Position numbers and translations under genes: made by a program. This document shows, in pieces, positions 1-7,317 of a stretch of DNA of 7,317 bases; the first letter of the stretch is position 1, and the number at the start of each line of letters is the position of its first letter. The stretch comes from Synergistaceae bacterium UBA1037 (GTDB lineage Bacteria; Synergistota; Synergistia; Synergistales; Synergistaceae): assembly GCA_002316795.1 (NCBI GenBank), contig DCEE01000044.1:1-7317 (forward strand). Reading direction: 5' to 3'. The notes below the pieces were generated by a model. That model had not been told where the DNA came from. It saw only the letters and a list, made by a program, of their open reading frames with translations, and did no database searches.

Positions 1-2156
1 ACCGCATTTACTATTGCGGCCGATACCGGAACTGTGGAAATTTCGCCTATGCTCTTCGCTCCGAAAGGACCTCCGGGTTCATTGTCTTCAATAAGGATTA
101 TTTCCGGATCGGGCATGTCCGGAGCATTCACAAGATGATATTTGTCAAAATTACGTACCCTGGGGATACCCATGTTGTCAAAGGGAAGTTCTTCGCTGAG
201 AGCCATACCTATCCCCATCTGGATGCCCCCGTATATCTGGCCCCTTACAAAGCTCTCGTTTATTGCCTGGCCGATATCGTGAACAGCAAGATATCTGTTG
301 ATCTTCACTAAGCCTGTCAGCTTGTCCACTGTCACTTCAGCAAAGTGAGCACCAAAAGATGCAGGGTTCATTTCAGGCCTGTGTTCATAATTAACCTCGA
401 TGGATACCCTCCTTTTTCCCATTATCTCTCTTACAGTATCTGCAATATCAAGCCTCTTTCCTTCACAAACAAGACTTCCTTTATAAAAACGGACAGGCTT
501 GTCCAAAAGTTTTGATGCCTCTTGAGTAAGCATTTTCACTGCTTCCTCGGAAACCAGCCTTGCGCATTCTCCGCATACGTATATGACCCTGCTTGCCTGG
601 CATCCGGAGTCATAAGAAGTAAATTGCGTGTCGGTCTCGGTAACGGTAATTTTTGAGACATCTATTCCTGTGACCTCGCCAACTATCTGTGCAAGTGCTG
701 TTGTTGCGCCGCTGCCAAGCTCATGGATCGAGGCCCTGAGTATCGCAGAACCGTCTTCAAGTATCCTTAGGGACATGTCTGAAAAATCGTGATATTTTGT
801 CTTATAGTAACCATTGCCATGTGTACAGCATGCGAAGCCTGTTCCGGTGAAAAATCTTCCTCTCCTTATCTTAGGAGTTTTGTTGTCTTCCCATCCGAAA
901 GACGCTGCTCCCCTACTAAGGCAGTCGATCACTCTTGCCTTACCGATATTAGCCCCTCCGGAAAGATCTTCTTCGAATTCTCTGAGGAGATTTTTCAGTC
1001 TGAACTGGAGAGGGTCGAATCCAAGCCTCCTGCACATCAGGTCTGTGTGGATCTCTGTTATTGTGTGTATCTGAGGTGAGCCGTAGCCCCGGCAGGCACC
1101 TGCCGGGGTCGTTGAAGTCCTGATAACAGAACCTGTGTAGCTGAGCGCAGGGATCCTATATAACCTTGAAGTTTTTTTCGCCATGGCCATCATTACCTTC
1201 TTTGTGCCTGTAAGGTATGCTCCTGCGTCAACGGTCAGTTCAAAGGACCTTCCAAGTATCATGCCATGAGCATCTACGGCCGTTTCGATTTTGCCTCTTA
1301 CTGCGGCTCTGGTGCGGGTCGAAAGGATGGTCTCTTCCCTCGTTGTATTGATAAAGACAGGCCTTTTGAGTTTATTAGCAGCCCACGCACACAAAACTTC
1401 AAAGACGACCTCCTGCTTGCCTCCAAAGGTCCCTCCCATGTTCGCCTTGATCACCCTAATCTTTGATAACGGCAGATCCAGTACCTGTGCAATGGAATGC
1501 TGAACTCCGAATGTGATCTGGCAGGGAGTCCTGACTTCTATTACATCTCCTGAACGAGGTATTGCGAGAACTGAGTGGGTTTCCATGGCCGCATGATGGA
1601 TCTTGGGAGTGGTGACTGTATCCGACTCTATGTAAGCGGCTGAAGAAAAGGCTTTTTCGAGATCTCCGTAGCATATGCTGCCGTCAAAGCTCTTTACTCC
1701 GTCTTCATGGAGCATCCCCGCCATGTCAGCGGCTGTTTCAGGAAGTGTGACGGCAGGCAGGATCTCATATTCGACCCTTACAAGATCCCTGGCCTTTCTC
1801 GCCTTCTCTTCCGTATCGGCCATGACCAGGGCTATACGGTCGCCTACGTGTCTTGCATGACCGGTCAGGACCGTCTCGTCAGGGTAGTCATCCTGGCCGG
1901 GGAACCACTCGCTGCCGTTGTATCTGGCATTGGGGGCATCAAGGTATGTAAGTATTTCGACACCCTCGATCCGGCTTGCCTCGGACACATCGATCTTCTT
2001 TACGACCGCATTGGCATGTGGGCTGAAAAGCACTGCACCGAAAAGGGCATTTGGGAACGGCTCGTCCGCGAGATAGGGAAACCTGCCGCGGACTTTGTCC
2101 ACAGCATCGAATCTTGTAACGTTCCTGCCGATATATTTGTATGATCTTTTATCCAT
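1..2156 (-). CDS. Molybdopterin-binding (large) subunit of a xanthine dehydrogenase-family enzyme, 3' end outside window
   Basis: This is the catalytic subunit of a molybdenum hydroxylase; it binds molybdopterin cytosine dinucleotide (or MPT) and hydroxylates an N-heterocycle or aldehyde using water. The frame is open from ATG at 2156 to base 1, 718 full codons, against a family length of about 750-800, so only the last few dozen residues are missing. Visible family motifs in order are: N-terminal VDKVRGRFPYLAD (residues 19-31), GGTFGGKQ (241-248), the Mo-site loop AGACRGYGSPQ (352-362, Arg356), HELGSG (478-483), AVHDIGQAIN near 620-640, GQIYGGIQMGIG, and GPFGAKSIGE near the end, whose Glu705 matches the catalytic base glutamate of the family. 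Its start overlaps the end of the FAD-subunit gene by 8 bp. Unusual features are Gln248, where mammalian xanthine oxidase has a substrate-binding Glu, and several Cys in motif regions (C355, C519, C528, C531). Family certain; substrate unknown; purine, nicotinate or aldehyde are all possible. Confidence 0.95.
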   Translation of the reverse strand, partial: MDKRSYKYIGRNVTRFDAVDKVRGRFPYLADEPFPNALFGAVLFSPHANAVVKKIDVSEASRIEGVEILTYLDAPNARYNGSEWFPGQDDYPDETVLTGHARHVGDRIALVMADTEEKARKARDLVRVEYEILPAVTLPETAADMAGMLHEDGVKSFDGSICYGDLEKAFSSAAYIESDTVTTPKIHHAAMETHSVLAIPRSGDVIEVRTPCQITFGVQHSIAQVLDLPLSKIRVIKANMGGTFGGKQEVVFEVLCAWAANKLKRPVFINTTREETILSTRTRAAVRGKIETAVDAHGMILGRSFELTVDAGAYLTGTKKVMMAMAKKTSRLYRIPALSYTGSVIRTSTTPAGACRGYGSPQIHTITEIHTDLMCRRLGFDPLQFRLKNLLREFEEDLSGGANIGKARVIDCLSRGAASFGWEDNKTPKIRRGRFFTGTGFACCTHGNGYYKTKYHDFSDMSLRILEDGSAILRASIHELGSGATTALAQIVGEVTGIDVSKITVTETDTQFTSYDSGCQASRVIYVCGECARLVSEEAVKMLTQEASKLLDKPVRFYKGSLVCEGKRLDIADTVREIMGKRRVSIEVNYEHRPEMNPASFGAHFAEVTVDKLTGLVKINRYLAVHDIGQAINESFVRGQIYGGIQMGIGMALSEELPFDNMGIPRVRNFDKYHLVNAPDMPDPEIILIEDNEPGGPFGAKSIGEISTVPVSAAIVNA
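1087..1108. repeat. Perfect 10-bp inverted repeat inside the Mo-subunit gene
   Basis: CCCCGGCAGG (1087-1096) and CCTGCCGGGG (1099-1108) are exactly complementary with a 2-nt spacer. It falls on the codons for the Mo-site loop PAGACRG, so it is coding sequence, but it is far more G+C-rich than its surroundings and could fold into a very stable hairpin in mRNA. No function can be assigned. Confidence 0.75.
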
Positions 2157-3033
2157 GGCTCTTCTCTCCGCTTTTTTCCAAAGACCTTCCCCTGGCCTCA
2201 AGCATTTCCAGAACATCTTCCGCCAGAGCCTGAATGGCCGACTGCTTATAAGGAAGCGTACTTCTGCTTGGGATCATACGCCCGGCAAATTCACAAAGGG
2301 CTTTTTTAAAACCTTCTTTACGTAAGGAGATAGGCATAAGGAGAGCGTTTTCCGCTTCGGGAGACCTTTTGGCGGCTGTGCCGAGAGTGCCTACGAATAC
2401 CATCGCATCACAAAATGCCCCGTCCTCATATTTTGCCGAGACAGCCAGATTGATCCTTGCTATGCTGACTTCGCTCCTGCTTCCTATTTTTTTGAATGCA
2501 GAGACATGACTTTTTCTTACCGGGATACGAAATTCCATAATGATATCGCTGTCCGACAGCGTATTTTTATTCGGGCATGTACCGAGCACTTCTTCGATCG
2601 AAAGTTCTTTTGTGCCTGAAGGAGAAAAAATTACCGCGGAAGCATCCAGGGCCGCCAACGCACCCGGGGTGTCGGCTGCGGGGGAAGCGTTTGCAAGATT
2701 TCCGCCCACTGTGGCTCTGTTTCTGATCTGGACCGAACCCATGGATGAGGCTGCATCGCAAAGTGCCGCTGCATGAAGTCTAATCTCCGGGTCTGTATGG
2801 ATAGATGTCATCGTCTCCATTGACCCCAACCTCAGAGAAGACTTCCTCTTCTCGATCCCCCTGAGTTCGGGGATCTTCGACAGATCAAAGAGCACTGCAT
2901 CCTCGGAGAGACTCCTCCTGTTTTTTATCAGCCAGTCAGTTCCTCCCGCTATGAAATGTTTCTCATGCTCACCGCATTCAGCCAGGAGCACGGAGAATTC
3001 TTTTATGCTTCGTGGTGCAAACAATTCTGTCAA
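2149..3033 (-). CDS. FAD-binding (medium) subunit of the molybdenum hydroxylase
   Basis: This subunit carries the FAD that passes electrons from the iron-sulfur centres to NAD+ or another acceptor. It is about 294 aa, the normal length for free-standing FAD subunits. The first FAD loop IAGGTDW lies about 30 residues in, and the second, ATVGGNLANASPAAD, at about 107-121; both are hallmark FAD_binding_5 motifs. IARINLAV at about 190-200 marks the C-terminal CO-dehydrogenase flavoprotein-like domain. No signal peptide or membrane segment is seen. The frame also opens at GTG 3042, but GGAGAG at 3042-3047 touches that codon, while it sits 8 nt before TTG 3033. TTG also overlaps the upstream TGA stop as TTGA, so I prefer TTG; GTG (3 residues longer) is the alternative. 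The stop TAA at 2149-2151 overlaps the Mo-subunit start. Function of the family is sure; exact start moderately sure. Confidence 0.93.
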   Translation of the reverse strand: MTELFAPRSIKEFSVLLAECGEHEKHFIAGGTDWLIKNRRSLSEDAVLFDLSKIPELRGIEKRKSSLRLGSMETMTSIHTDPEIRLHAAALCDAASSMGSVQIRNRATVGGNLANASPAADTPGALAALDASAVIFSPSGTKELSIEEVLGTCPNKNTLSDSDIIMEFRIPVRKSHVSAFKKIGSRSEVSIARINLAVSAKYEDGAFCDAMVFVGTLGTAAKRSPEAENALLMPISLRKEGFKKALCEFAGRMIPSRSTLPYKQSAIQALAEDVLEMLEARGRSLEKSGEKSHG

Positions 3034-3509
3034 CGTCTGCACTCTCCGATCCGTGCAGCTGCTGTCTCAACTGCATCGATTATCTGGGTATACCCTGTGC
3101 ATCTGCAAATATTGCCAGCCAGGGCGGTCCTGATCTCTTCTCTCGACGGACAGGGGTTTTTCATGAGCAAAGCCTTGGCCGACATTATCATTCCGGGAGT
3201 GCAGAAACCGCACTGGACAGCATCACAGTCTATAAAAGACTGTTGGATCAGATCCAATTCTCCGTTTTCCTCCAGCCCTTCGACCGTAAGGATATCGTGT
3301 CCGTCCGCCTGAAAGGCCGGCACCACGCAAGAACAGACTGCCTCGCCATTCATGATGACCGTGCACGCACCGCACTCTCCCGCGCCGCATCCCTCTTTGA
3401 CGCTGACAAGGCCGAACTTCTGCCGGAGCACATCTATCAGCCTCTCGGACGCAGATACTTCAGCTATTCTTAATTTGCCGTTGATCTTAAGTTCTATTTT
3501 CAGGAACAT
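3030..3509 (-). CDS. [2Fe-2S] (small) subunit of the molybdenum hydroxylase
   Basis: This subunit relays electrons from the Mo site to FAD through two [2Fe-2S] clusters. From ATG 3509 it is 159 aa, the standard size. The N-terminal plant-ferredoxin-like domain has GCGAGECGACTV (residues 40-51) giving Cys41, Cys46, Cys49, with Cys61 as fourth ligand. The C-terminal helical domain has QCGFCTPGMIMS (99-110) and ICRCTGYTQI (134-143), giving Cys100, Cys103, Cys135 and Cys137. All eight ligands are present. The beginning, MFLKIELKINGK, aligns with the usual strand before the first cluster. The frame stays open upstream to 3599, but that stretch overlaps the promoter and has no family resemblance. 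ATG 3524, five residues earlier, is an alternative, since the G-rich GGGGTG directly before ATG 3509 is too close to be an ideal ribosome site. It is the first gene of the operon and its stop overlaps the FAD-subunit start. Confidence 0.94.
   Translation of the reverse strand: MFLKIELKINGKLRIAEVSASERLIDVLRQKFGLVSVKEGCGAGECGACTVIMNGEAVCSCVVPAFQADGHDILTVEGLEENGELDLIQQSFIDCDAVQCGFCTPGMIMSAKALLMKNPCPSREEIRTALAGNICRCTGYTQIIDAVETAAARIGECRR
3042..3047 (-). promoter_or_regulatory. Ribosome binding site deciding the FAD-subunit start
   Basis: On the minus strand GGAGAG lies within the last codons of the [2Fe-2S] subunit gene. It is immediately adjacent to the GTG at 3042 (too close) and 8 nt from the TTG at 3033 (good spacing). 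This supports TTG as the initiation codon, coupled to termination at TGA 3030-3032. Confidence 0.55.
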
Positions 3510-3569
3510 CACCCCAACGATCATTGCCAGTCCAATATGCATGTCCGGTATTTTATTTCCATAAATAAG

Positions 3570-3599
3570 TCTATACTTACCACATAAGAAAAGCGTCAA
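3570..3599 (-). promoter_or_regulatory. Predicted promoter of the molybdenum hydroxylase operon
   Basis: On the minus strand, TTGACG (3599-3594) as -35 is followed after 18 bp by TATAGA (3575-3570) as -10, so transcription would begin near 3563 and leave a leader of about 54 nt before ATG 3509. The -35 box is itself part of the inverted copy of the TTGACGCTT box found upstream of the divergent regulator gene. Predicted by eye; 5/6 and 4/6 matches to the sigma70-type consensus with slightly long spacing. Confidence 0.5.
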
Positions 3600-3669
3600 T
3601 ATTCCTCATCGTGTCTCAGCTTCTTTTTTACGCTTGTTTGACGTTTTATTGACGCTTTTTGTGAGGAAT
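3589..3669. repeat. Two interleaved inverted repeats in the divergent promoter region
   Basis: AAAAGCGTCAATA at 3589-3601 is exactly complementary to TATTGACGCTTTT at 3647-3659 (13 bp). Directly beside each arm, ATTCCTCA at 3601-3608 is exactly complementary to TGAGGAAT at 3662-3669 (8 bp). The order is A-B then A'-B', so the arms cannot nest into a single hairpin. This suits protein binding at two mirrored sites rather than a terminator. The left pair overlaps the operon -35 box; the right pair lies just before the rightward promoter. Confidence 0.8.
3630..3662 (+). promoter_or_regulatory. Three tandem 11-bp units, candidate SARP/BTAD operator
   Basis: Three units follow each other without gaps: ACGCTTGTTTG (3630-3640), ACGTTTTATTG (3641-3651) and ACGCTTTTTGT (3652-3662). 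With the preceding bases the shared core reads TT(T/G)ACG(C/T)TT, spaced exactly 11 bp three times. Established knowledge: SARP-type activators bind heptameric direct repeats with 11-bp phasing beside the -35/-10 region. The gene 70 bp downstream encodes a protein with that DNA-binding domain. That this is its operator is inference. Confidence 0.6.
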
Positions 3670-3698
3670 TTTCAGGATCTGACAAATATTGATATAAT
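3669..3698 (+). promoter_or_regulatory. Predicted promoter of the SARP-like regulator gene
   Basis: A perfect TATAAT -10 box at 3693-3698 is preceded by a weak -35 (TTTTCA, 3669-3674) at 18 bp. A good -10 with a poor -35 is typical of activator-dependent promoters, and the 11-bp repeat cluster ends just upstream of the -35. Transcription would start near 3705, leaving a leader of about 29 nt. Confidence 0.5.
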
Positions 3699-3705
3699 TT
3701 GATAT
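3689..3705 (+). repeat. Direct repeat TTGATAT over the -10 region
   Basis: TTGATAT occurs at 3689-3695 and again at 3699-3705, a 10-bp step that straddles the predicted TATAAT box. It could be a regulatory half-site pair or simple A+T-rich sequence; no binding protein can be named. Confidence 0.35.
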
Positions 3706-3722
3706 CGACGAAATACAAAGAC

Positions 3723-3728
3723 GGAGGT
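3723..3728 (+). promoter_or_regulatory. Strong ribosome binding site of the regulator gene
   Basis: GGAGGT ends 5 nt before ATG 3734 and fixes that codon as the start. The first residues, MTLFLHLLGNPYIEISG, match the usual opening strand of SARP-type winged-helix domains. Confidence 0.85.
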
Positions 3729-3733
3729 CGTCC

Positions 3734-6700
3734 ATGACTCTTTTTCTCCACTTATTGGGAAACCCCTATATCGAGATCAGCGGAAGAAAAATTTCTTTTC
3801 CGCTGAAAAAAGCGGAGTCAATGGTCTTTTACCTGGCATTGAACGGCCCCGCTACCAGAAATCAGCTTAAAGCACTCTTCTGGTCGGACATGGAAAGACC
3901 CCAGGCATCAGCCAATCTGAGAAACGCTCTCTATATAATACGAAACACGATACCAGAATATGTAGACATCGACAGAAACAGCATCTCTCTCAAAGAGACA
4001 TTTGATGACATCTCCGCCCTTGAGCAAATAATCGATCCCGATGTTCCGCTCCCAAGGCATATAACCGAAGAGCCCCTCAGAGATTTCAGTCTCGAAGGTT
4101 CGGAAGAGTTTGACGAATGGACGGCAGTCACAAAGCAGGCGATCAGAAAAAATATCGTAACGATGCTGAGGAAGAGGATCTCAAATTGCTACGAAAAAAA
4201 GATGTATGAAGAGATGAGCAATTCGCTTGAGACCCTGCTGACTATCGATCCTTACGATGAAGATTCAGTGCTTGAACTGATGGAGATATACTGCAATATG
4301 GGACAGCCCACCAAAGCTCTGATCTTTTTCAAAGAGTACTCATCGAAAATTGAAAACAAGATGGGCATCACACCCTCGGAGAGAAGCAAAAAATACTTCA
4401 GAAAGATCCTCAACAACTGGTCAGAATACGACACCTCCTCCGAAAACAGGGAAAAGTTCTGGTGCAGGAAAAACGAGCTCGCCGCGATGATAGGGGCCCT
4501 GACAGATCCGGGAGGCCTGAACACAGCCGTCTACGTGCACGGAGAGGCCGGTATAGGCAAGACGGCGCTGATCAACAAAGCTGTATCGATACTCGACAAA
4601 GGTGACTTCCTGATCCTCTCGTCAAGATCCAGCCCCATAGGCGAAGGCTATCCGTACTCTTCCTGGAACAGCATAATGACACGGATAGGCCGGATGCCCG
4701 AGATCGAAAATGATTTTCCGGATATAAATACCCGGTCCGTCCTTTCCGGCATTTTCCCCGGATTCCTGGGCGGCAAGGGCCTTAACTACAACGCAGACGT
4801 GGCTCTGATGACCGAGAGGAATCCCATTGTCATCAGCGGCATGATAAACGATATCCTCCGGCGCATAGCAAGCAAAAAGAGGATCATTATGATCTTTGAG
4901 GACATCCACTGGTTCGACACACAGTCGATCCAGCTTCTGACTGCTTTTATGAGTACTGTTGATCTTGATATCAACATCATCCTGTCAGGACGGCCGGAGT
5001 CATCGAGGATCACCCTGGCAATGCTTCAAAGTCTGGATCCTCCCTCAAAATGGAAGATCGTCCCTCTCAAACTGGCCCCTCTGCGAAATGATGAGATCAT
5101 AGACATATGCCGGAACTCCCTTTCCGAAGAGCTTCTCAATCAAAAGGGCGACGAATATTTTATCCGTGAAAGCGAAGGGATCCCCCTTCTTCTTTTTGAG
5201 ATGCTCCGTGCGGCGGAGGAGAATCCTGATTCCGATCTTACGAACGGATTGGGTGGACTCATAATGGCGAGGATAGGAGATCTTTCAGAGCTGCAGCAAA
5301 ATGTGCTTGCAATAATTTCAGTCTTTGCGGTGGGTGCATCTCCCGAACAGATAACGGAGGCCGCCTCCCGCGGATACGATGAAGTGCTGTCGGCAGGCGA
5401 AACCCTTCTATCCAAAGGACTGCTGAAAGAACGGGAAGAAGACGGGAAGGTGATCTGGGATTTTACCCATGCAAAGGTCAGGGAGTGCATATATGAATCG
5501 ATCTCCCTCTCCAAAAGGCAGGAACTTCACAAGAAGGTCGCCGAGGTCCTGAACAACGCATACTCGCCGCAGAAATGGGATCCGGAACTCAGCACTATGC
5601 TCTGTCACCACTACATGAGATCGGGGCAGCGTGCCATGGAACTTAAACAGTATCTGCGGGAGCTTATTTTTGATATCACGCTCAACCATGACCTTTTCCC
5701 CGTCGTTTCGGACAAGGTGCTTCTCTCCTGCTCCACCCCCTTCAGCAGCAGAGAGGGGACCGAACAGAGAATCAGTCAGGCTCTGGCGCTGCTGGATGAG
5801 ATCCGTACGGACAAAAATGTCGGCCGGATGGAACTGAAAAGCCTTGAGGCTTCATGTTTCGAACTGGCGGGAGGATACCATATAAGCTGGGGAGAATATG
5901 ACAAGGGCCTCGTCTTTATAAACGAAGCGATAAGCATTTCAAAGGAATTCGGGCTCTCTGAGACACACATACACTGTCTAAAGCATATATGCTACATGCA
6001 TCTTCAGACAGAAGACCCCGTGCGCCTTATTTCAACGGCAAGAGAGCTGATACAGCTTTCACGGCCGGAAAATCACCGACACTACATGGCAACGGCAGTA
6101 AGGTTCGTCGGAGTATCGATGTTTTTATCAGGAAAATACGACCAGGCAGAAAGAACGTTCAGGCATTCGATCAGACTTTTCGAAAGCCTTAAGCTTACGG
6201 GCAAATGCTATACGCTGAGCATACTGGTCGCGAAATGCTACATTGCCGAGATATTCCAGCTTAAAGGAGATCACGCAAGCGCACTGGCCTATCTCGAATC
6301 CGCCACGGAGACCTCTGAAAGGATAGGCCTCTATTGGGGCAGAAGCTATTTTCACACCCATGCGGCGAGCCTAGCTTTGGACATGAACGATATGTCCCTG
6401 CTATTTCGCCATATAGACGATGCCGTATCCCTGTTCGAAAGCTGCAGGGGCGGCAGGTGCGGATCGATGCTGTACAGCATCAAGGCGATAGCGGACGCTG
6501 AGCGCGGCCGGCAGGAATCGGCAGAAAAATCTATCGAACGTGCGGAGATCTTCCTGAAAGATGTCTCCAGAAAACAATGGCTGGCGACCCAATATCTGGC
6601 AAAGGCCTGGCTCTTGTCAAAATCATCGAAAAATAAAAAGACCCAGCAAAAAAATAGCAGATCCCCCTGGGGATCGACCGAAGAACTGGCTCTCAGGTCC

Positions 6701-6842: not shown

Positions 6843-7170
6843 ATTGGCCTGAGTGTATTCTGTTGCGCTGACTTGTATGCTTCTTGAAAGATCATCAAGG
6901 AGCATCTTTTCTGTTTTTTTTTGCAAAATCCCTGTCACACATGATCATAGTTATCTCAAAATTCAGCCTGAACGACCGGTTGTCAAAATTTGCTGTACCT
7001 ACTACAGCCGAAGTATTATCATCTGCCAGCATGACTTTCTGGTGCATAAAGCCCTTGTTGTATTTGTAGACTTTGACTCCCGCCCTCTCCAGTTCAGACA
7101 GATATGAGCAGGCGAAGAGGCCCACCAGTATGTTGTCGGGTCTTCTCGGTATGATGACGTGTTTTGATCA
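6789..7170 (-). pseudogene. cls: 3' remnant of a cardiolipin synthase (phospholipase D family) gene, truncated and frameshifted
   Basis: Cardiolipin synthase joins phosphatidylglycerol units at the inner membrane and has two HKD motifs. Here only the C-terminal part remains. It begins with KHVIIPRRPDNILV just after a TGA at 7168-7170, continues through the second HKD motif (GFMHQKVMLADD, HxKxxxxD) and GTANFDNRSFRLNFEI, and ends with DRDFAKK. The frame then stops early at 6895-6897. Removing one A from the nine-A run (T9 on the plus strand, 6914-6922) restores about 45 residues: TEKMLLDDLSRS, then ANFLFRL and SDLMASVQ, a normal Cls C-terminus, with stop at 6789-6791. The N-terminal transmembrane segments and first HKD motif are absent and no convincing start is seen; an internal ATG at 7125 is possible. 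It is convergent with the regulator gene, with 10 bp between stops. Identity strong; pseudogene status likely, subject to sequencing error in the A run. Confidence 0.82.
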
Positions 7171-7317
7171 GTATCTGGTCACATACTCGAACCTCTCCCG
7201 GAATTCCTCAGGGGACATGTGAGCCGCCACTGCAAGCTGCACAAACTCCAGCCCCGGCTCAAAATCTTTCTTTTCCAGCCTTATCATGTACTGTCTTGCT
7301 ATCCTGTACTGGATAGA
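7168..7317 (-). CDS. C-terminal end of an unrecognised protein, 5' part outside window
   Basis: An open frame enters from the right edge and gives 49 codons before TGA at 7168-7170. The peptide is soluble-looking and charged, with likely helices: IARQYMIRLEKKD, then FVQLAVAAHMSPEEFRERF, ending YVTRY. I do not recognise the family. It does not look like the region that normally precedes the KHVIIPRRPD segment of cardiolipin synthase, though it is in the same frame. Either it is a separate gene whose end abuts the cls remnant, or a fragment fused to it by deletion. Confidence 0.45.
   Translation of the reverse strand, partial: SIQYRIARQYMIRLEKKDFEPGLEFVQLAVAAHMSPEEFRERFEYVTRY

Follow-up and report, generated by a model that had tools for sequence, protein, structure and literature searches.

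SARPs are known as the switches of antibiotic clusters in Streptomyces. According to the accessible portion of PMC10936776, their operators follow a rule of spacing, in which the repeats lie 11 or 22 bp apart and the 3′ repeat stands 8 bp from the −10 element. AfsR of Streptomyces coelicolor, a large SARP (PDB 8hvr, 8k60), joins a winged helix and a BTAD domain to NTPase and TPR parts, and its afs box, as given in the same portion of that article, consists of 11-bp direct repeats, lacks a useful −35 and has 8 bp between its last heptamer and the −10 (PMC10936776). The SARP-LAL regulator PimR is encoded divergently from its target, and in the accessible text of the two articles that describe it, a single array of 11-bp units (heptamer CGGCAAG) in the pimR/pimM gap is set away from the −35 (PMC3367932, PMC5930380). 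EmbR of Mycobacterium tuberculosis (PDB 2fez, 2ff4) also has the winged-helix and BTAD fold and ends in an FHA domain (PMC10936776, accessible portion).

The window, which is the whole 7,317-nt stretch of DNA that was analysed, is a 7.3-kb contig from a member of the Synergistaceae, and its repeats sit in the gap between a regulator gene and a divergent enzyme operon (Table 1). With a probability that we put at about 0.8, judging from sequence comparison, these repeats would be the operator of the adjacent AfsR-like regulator, which would recruit RNA polymerase to the divergent XdhCBA-like operon; this would be a SARP-like operator of known type with an apparently undescribed catabolic target. 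The likeness to AfsR extends to the domain plan and the operator geometry, whereas the half-site here is TTGACG and not the afs repeat, the host belongs to the Synergistota rather than the Actinobacteria, and the target is a catabolic operon. PimR is matched in the divergent layout, in the 11-bp units and in having one array away from the −35, but its heptamer differs, and the present locus also has another site, at the position classical for SARPs, before the target, with only one perfect half-site in the window's genus. Relative to EmbR, the C-terminal part is AAA and TPR rather than FHA, and the target differs. The SARP promoter grammar recurs in this way far outside the Actinobacteria, before a nutrient-breakdown operon, which would provide a readable motif for the whole phylum. 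Within mostly non-subscription literature, we found no paper on SARPs in Synergistota, and a search combining Synergist with BTAD gave nothing usable.

Table 1. Genes and predicted promoter elements of the window (positions are those of the window)
Feature	Position	Strand	Remarks
Large-SARP-like regulator, 1014 aa	3734..6778	+	BTAD 128-226, AAA_16 241-416, TPR; N-terminal winged-helix fold
XdhC-like [2Fe-2S] subunit	3030..3509	-	start inferred, ATG 3509
XdhB-like FAD subunit	2149..3042	-	
XdhA-like molybdopterin subunit	3..2216	-	truncated by contig end
Three contiguous 11-bp units	TTTACGCTTGT 3627-3637, TTGACGTTTTA 3638-3648, TTGACGCTTTT 3649-3659	+	
Core operator (predicted), TTGACG-N5-TTGACG	3638..3654	+	11-bp phase; faces regulator gene
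Weak third half-site, TTTACG	3627..3632	+	11 bp away in window
−35-like, TTTTCA	3669-3674	+	4/6 match; regulator promoter
−10, TATAAT	3693..3698	+	extended (TGA before); invariant 6/6
Half-site, TTGACG	3594..3599	-	in 6/6 close sequences and G015
Degenerate second half-site, CTTATG	3583..3588	-	11 bp on
Predicted −10, TAGACT	3568..3573	-	9 bp after second half-site; identical 6/6; TAAACT in G015

The regulator has the architecture of a large SARP, with an OmpR-like winged helix followed by a BTAD domain and then an NTPase and TPR tail; the BTAD, AAA_16 and TPR_12 matches all lie over their cut-offs. An AF2 model of the N-terminal 243 residues, made from a 20-sequence alignment (pLDDT 90.4), has six PDB matches at E ≤ 0.001, and all six are AfsR or EmbR chains. 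In a sequence-profile search, AfsR is the best match along the full stretch (residues 3-228); designed TPR proteins outscore it, but over 148-201 alone. Single-sequence searches returned no PDB relative. By positions counted by hand, the base-contacting T88 of AfsR aligns to N64 and R92 to a hydrophobic residue, which fits a different half-site. The antibiotic cluster in an actinomycete that belongs to the usual picture of a SARP is not found here, as the host is one of the Synergistaceae and the neighbours are catabolic-type enzymes and a transporter.

The three contiguous 11-bp units reported in the preliminary description are present at 3627-3659, the earlier position of 3630-3662 marking this array with its units counted from 3 bp further on. 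The window holds a single TTKACGN5TTGACGN5TTGACG, a pattern that none of 200 dinucleotide shuffles produced, and TTGACGN5TTGACG with at most one mismatch occurs twice, against 0.04 expected. The exact pair, TTGACGTTTTATTGACG, is the sole TTGACGN5TTGACG of its own 1.75-Mb assembly; a reversed control pattern has two occurrences there, and therefore the pair is not rare by itself. We aligned the gap in six sequences, comprising the window, four further members of the genus and L035, a record labelled Clostridia whose gap is identical to that of G006; the window and G002, both among the six, are near-identical. All six share 20 consecutive invariant columns, TTTGACGTTTTATTGACGCT, over the plus-strand pair, against a mean of 79% for the alignment. 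The first unit, TTTAC, is spaced at 12 bp in four of six close relatives, so only two units are kept in phase, and a three-unit operator was rejected as the conserved element. What remains of the 11-bp-phased SARP-like operator first proposed is the core pair. The preliminary description had suggested a check for conservation in orthologous loci; there the pair is invariant (6/6), and the paired half-site is found again in clusters with regulators of only about 26-50% identity. A further copy of TTGACGCTTTT, on the minus strand at 3599-3589, had been passed over in the preliminary description; it makes a perfect 13-bp inverted pair with 3647-3659 and is part of the divergent promoter.

The regulator promoter has the perfect −10 and the poor −35 noted earlier, together with an extended TGA that had been overlooked, and the sequence TTGATATAATTT is invariant in the six-sequence alignment. 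The preliminary description took this promoter to be autoregulated and activator-dependent, and positive autoregulation through the plus-strand triple could be seen as the main role of the repeats. No invariant stretch of the gap is longer than that of the pair, which faces the regulator in all seven regulator-bearing sequences examined from genera g1 and g10, and the PimR operator likewise lies upstream of its own −35 (accessible part of PMC3367932); with PimR, however, the divergent gene is the regulated one. The distance from the pair to the regulator −10 is 38-40 bp (38 bp in the window), which is not of SARP type, the −10 is both consensus and extended, and none of the 17 other regulator upstream regions tested has a pair facing the regulator above 8 of 12 matches. 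We regard autoregulation as an unlikely main role, and on this point the earlier proposal is not supported. The plus-strand pair was also rejected as a classical SARP promoter, there being no conserved −10 nine bp 3′ of it. Rather, the pair at 3638-3654 may be a second, and in the genus stronger, binding site, which would tune the regulator gene or help the divergent promoter, with the PimR operator in the pimR/pimM gap as a precedent (PMC3367932, PMC5930380).

The conserved promoter of SARP type is the divergent one of the enzyme operon, overlooked when the regulator promoter was taken as the main one. In the window, the target promoter would read TTGACG(3599)-N5-CTTATG-N9-TAGACT(3568) on the minus strand, which places a degenerate half-site at the 8-bp SARP distance from the −10. 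The position of the second half-site is TTTATG in G006 and its near twin and TTGACG in G015, and within the window's genus the site has 9-10 of 12 matches. Taken alone, the window site is not clearly above chance (shuffle p 0.065); it was accepted because it is identical in 6/6 and a perfect site stands at the equal place in G015. G015, with 64% regulator identity, has a perfect pair on both strands, while G020, G033 and G030 (47-50%, whole regulator) have one perfect pair in the gap, in minus orientation and directed at the enzyme operon; in G026 (44%) the pair has 11 of 12 matches. The mechanically called reading frame of the XdhC-like gene opens at 3599, within this promoter, and ATG 3509 was taken as its start.

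Across 185 Synergistota genomes, TTGACGN5TTGACGN9TANNNT occurs at 13 sites in 11 genomes, and its reversed control occurs once. All 13 sites lie directly upstream of XdhC (nine), of a HAL-like gene followed by XdhC (two) or of a BCCT transporter gene (two); they come from five genera with several close pairs and amount to fewer than 13 independent events. When both gaps were left free (3-7 and 6-12), 74 matches fell into 35 spacing cells, with 13 in the N5/N9 cell and a mean of 1.8 and a maximum of 8 in the other 34; gaps 3 and 6 likewise have large row totals (21 and 23), a pattern expected of coding DNA. Counted as the heptamer TTGACGN, the N9 between the last TTGACG and TANNNT becomes 8 bp, the published SARP distance, which is found across the phylum but not at the plus-strand pair. 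We scored 37 regions from 33 genomes, of which 25 have at least 11 of 12 matches, the six of the window's genus have 9-10, and six (G098, G097, G031, G019, G061 and G100) have at most 8 and no TTGACG pair. When each genus and target is represented by a single region, the 11-bp spacing, one of the two known for SARP operators, yields at least 11 of 12 matches in 12 of 19 regions; at inter-hexamer gaps of 1-4 and 6-15 the count is 0/19, and the 22-bp spacing accounts for two regions, gap 17 for one and gap 18 for one. Scanning 80 genomes for the exact pair without the −10 gave 54 rows (19 for the reversed control), and since 17 of the 54 fall in this cluster, the pair alone is not diagnostic.

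This geometry also bears on whether the TTGACG repeats are simply ordinary sigma-70 −35 boxes of one or more overlapping promoters, with no repeat-binding regulator involved. TTGACG does match TTGACA at five of six positions, and the minus strand can be read as TTGACG-N18-TATAGA in the genus and as TTGACG-N18-TATAAA in G015. A weak −10 (4/6, with A2 and T6) lies 16-18 bp from a hexamer in 5 of the 13 pattern-selected regions and in 1 of 11 others, but four of those five are near-identical sequences of family f9. The plus-strand consensus −10 stands 38-40 bp off, and in the 11 regions that had not been selected for a −10, TANNNT stands 9 bp past the last hexamer in eight, 10 bp in one and 21 bp in one. 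A lone −35 would leave two to three hexamers locked at 11 bp unexplained, with no neighbouring spacing enriched, and we hold this reading to be quite improbable.

A motif-independent test of the link between regulator and site came from 20 loci chosen by homology to the operon lyase, taken from relatives above about 36% identity (the pair in G104 was already known). Six of these were left unscored because the first-gene start was missing or unclear (G018, G155, G046, G005, G101 and G097 contig 22). Among the 16 regions scored (14 genomes), ten have 11-12 of 12 matches, with TANNNT at N9 in eight of the ten and at N10 in one. Six further lyase loci, five of them new and one a longer stretch of G018, added two sites with TANNNT at N9 (G168 and G036), and the second G033 cluster, G097 contigs 5 and 13, and G018 have no TTGACG pair. 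Taking the 25 distinct lyase loci together, repeats are found in all nine in which the regulator is present (TTGACG in six, TATACG-like in three), and TTGACG repeats are found in 4 of the 16 with no regulator on the stretch read (G008, G027, G168 and G036), a group that includes several short contig ends. The closest regulator homologue found lies about 40 kb off in G008 and about 100 kb off in G027.

The ten motif-less regions (6/37 and 4/6 of the further loci) include three with a regulator homologue, G098, G031 and G019, and each of the three has repeats of another kind. In G031, the 7-base TATACGA is repeated perfectly at 11 bp (L130:5363-5395), with TATGCT at the SARP distance, an arrangement reached in 1% of shuffles, and G019 (L135:6093-6125) and G098 (L128:1892-1925) carry TATACG-like pairs at 12 bp, followed by a −10 after nine and ten bp. 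All 16 aligned regulators that go with TTGACG-type sites have RNALY in the recognition helix, whereas RNALS stands there in 3 of 3 regulators from clusters with TATACG-like repeats, three that may be one clade. It is possible that the switch of half-site tracks the end of the recognition helix.

Regulators of the OmpR/PhoB type bind 11-bp direct repeats too, and the repeats could belong to such a winged-helix protein instead of the adjacent regulator. AfsR and PhoP share a site (accessible part of PMC10972967), and the three f9 genomes G071, G064 and G086, as well as the 4/16 lyase loci above, keep the site with no regulator found. Yet the regulator-bearing lyase loci have repeats in every case (9/9), the three regulators with an altered recognition-helix end pair with another half-site, and the three f9 genomes have what looks, from their gene content, like a loss of the same cluster by deletion, with the site kept and the regulator, XdhB, XdhA and lyase not found there. 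We judge a foreign OmpR/PhoB-type protein to be a poor candidate. In those three genomes (L103:8484-8934 in G071, L104:8393-8843 in G086 and L114:8321-8771 in G064), the operator is followed by a shortened XdhC and then an FmdA-like gene.

Returning to the adjacent AfsR-like regulator, we infer that it binds these sites and activates the operon. The two half-sites would be occupied by a side-by-side dimer of the regulator, which would bring RNA polymerase to the divergent molybdenum-hydroxylase operon; like AfsR, the dimer would link sigma region 4 to the DNA in lieu of a −35. A signal, perhaps ergothioneine or one of its breakdown products, would be sensed by the AAA and TPR parts.

Ergothioneine is a diet-derived thiol and a betaine, and its breakdown by ergothionase gives trimethylamine. 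In sister genomes, XdhCBA, a BCCT transporter and a HAL-like lyase form a single run that extends beyond the point where the window contig ends; the f9 clusters show no BCCT on the stretch read, and G075 shows no lyase. The XdhC-, XdhB- and XdhA-like subunits all fall under the NCBIfam equivalog cut-offs, and so the substrate of the molybdenum hydroxylase is not nameable by homology. The best solved relative of the operon lyase is the ergothionase 6s7j at 500 bits, whose species, Treponema denticola, is given in the accessible part of PMC13405746, and the best histidine ammonia-lyase scores 230; the f9 lyase scores 312 bits against ergothionase and 162 against the next relative, an aminomutase. 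Unlike the Treponema enzyme, the lyase here is known from sequence, and its gene lies in the sister genomes, the window contig ending earlier. The MIO-forming ASG triad is absent from all 22 cluster lyases inspected (SVGEGD, SVGEAD and similar), and the true HutH of G020 keeps SVGASGD. Ergothionase is likewise described as having no MIO (PMC13405746, accessible part). The identity of the lyase as a histidine ammonia-lyase was thus rejected on the scores (500 vs 230 bits) and the missing triad, and in sequence the protein has the ergothionase hallmarks of a HAL/PAL fold, no MIO triad and a known ergothionase as nearest relative; in a database search with the lyase, none of the 120 matches listed was named ergothionase. 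The nearest NCBIfam names for the transporter are betaine and carnitine BCCT carriers, under the cut-off.

Because an ergothionase-like lyase occurs with a BCCT carrier of betaine type, and ergothioneine is a betaine, the operon likely serves ergothioneine or hercynine breakdown. The finding would tie an uncharacterised molybdenum hydroxylase to ergothioneine and makes the question of the regulator's ligand directly testable. A broader proposal, which we offer tentatively and at somewhat less than even odds, is a phylum-wide SARP regulon for ergothioneine degradation. Here the AfsR-like ATPase would sense ergothioneine or thiourocanate, clamp the double site of 11-bp phase instead of a −35, and switch on BCCT uptake, trimethylamine release by the ergothionase, and a new molybdenum hydroxylase that would act on thiourocanate, with Tyr67 or Ser at the end of the recognition helix deciding between TTGACG and TTATACG as half-site. 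In mostly non-subscription literature, we found nothing on ergothioneine with Synergistota beyond a COVID-19 severity study, and nothing usable on thiourocanate chemistry beyond the accessible part of PMC13405746. In G020 (L108:7462-9861) and G033 (L115:6147-8555), the HAL-like protein is split into two genes before XdhC, and the N-terminal half of the G020 protein has no ASG triad (STGLSD).

Related words were also seen elsewhere. An exact TTGACGTTTTATTGACG in G020 (L106:7085-7101) is flanked by a true hutH and a gene for formiminotransferase and has no −10 at the usual spacing. L057:1501-1539 (G062:C5:7545-7583) holds TTGACG four times in perfect 11-bp phase, in a genome outside the 62 with a BTAD match. 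The exact 17-mer TTGACGTTTTATTGACG is also contained in the IMG/VR contigs L124, L125 and L126. Paralogous BTAD regulators of the same family have no TTGACGN5TTGACG upstream; in the paralogues G020b, G033b and G030c (L046, L045 and L049), the upstream TTGAC words are 22 bp apart, or two helical turns. G020d was considered as a fourth 22-bp paralogue and set aside, as its TTGAC spacing measures 23 bp.

The origin of the locus itself is a separate matter. In G175, which is from the same species and 99% complete, the regulator and the whole locus were not found. The locus of the window (G000:C55) is 96-99% identical to that of G002, which belongs to another species of the genus, and the stretch 2200-3800 is 96% alike. 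The contig may represent an accessory island or a binning error, and either origin leaves the cross-genome argument untouched. At its far end (6895-7317, minus strand), pieces of a gene like phospholipase D or cardiolipin synthase run across short ORFs; they include the motif HQKVMLAD, which we take to be of HxK type and on which we base this assignment, and the gene is probably broken or cut by the contig end.
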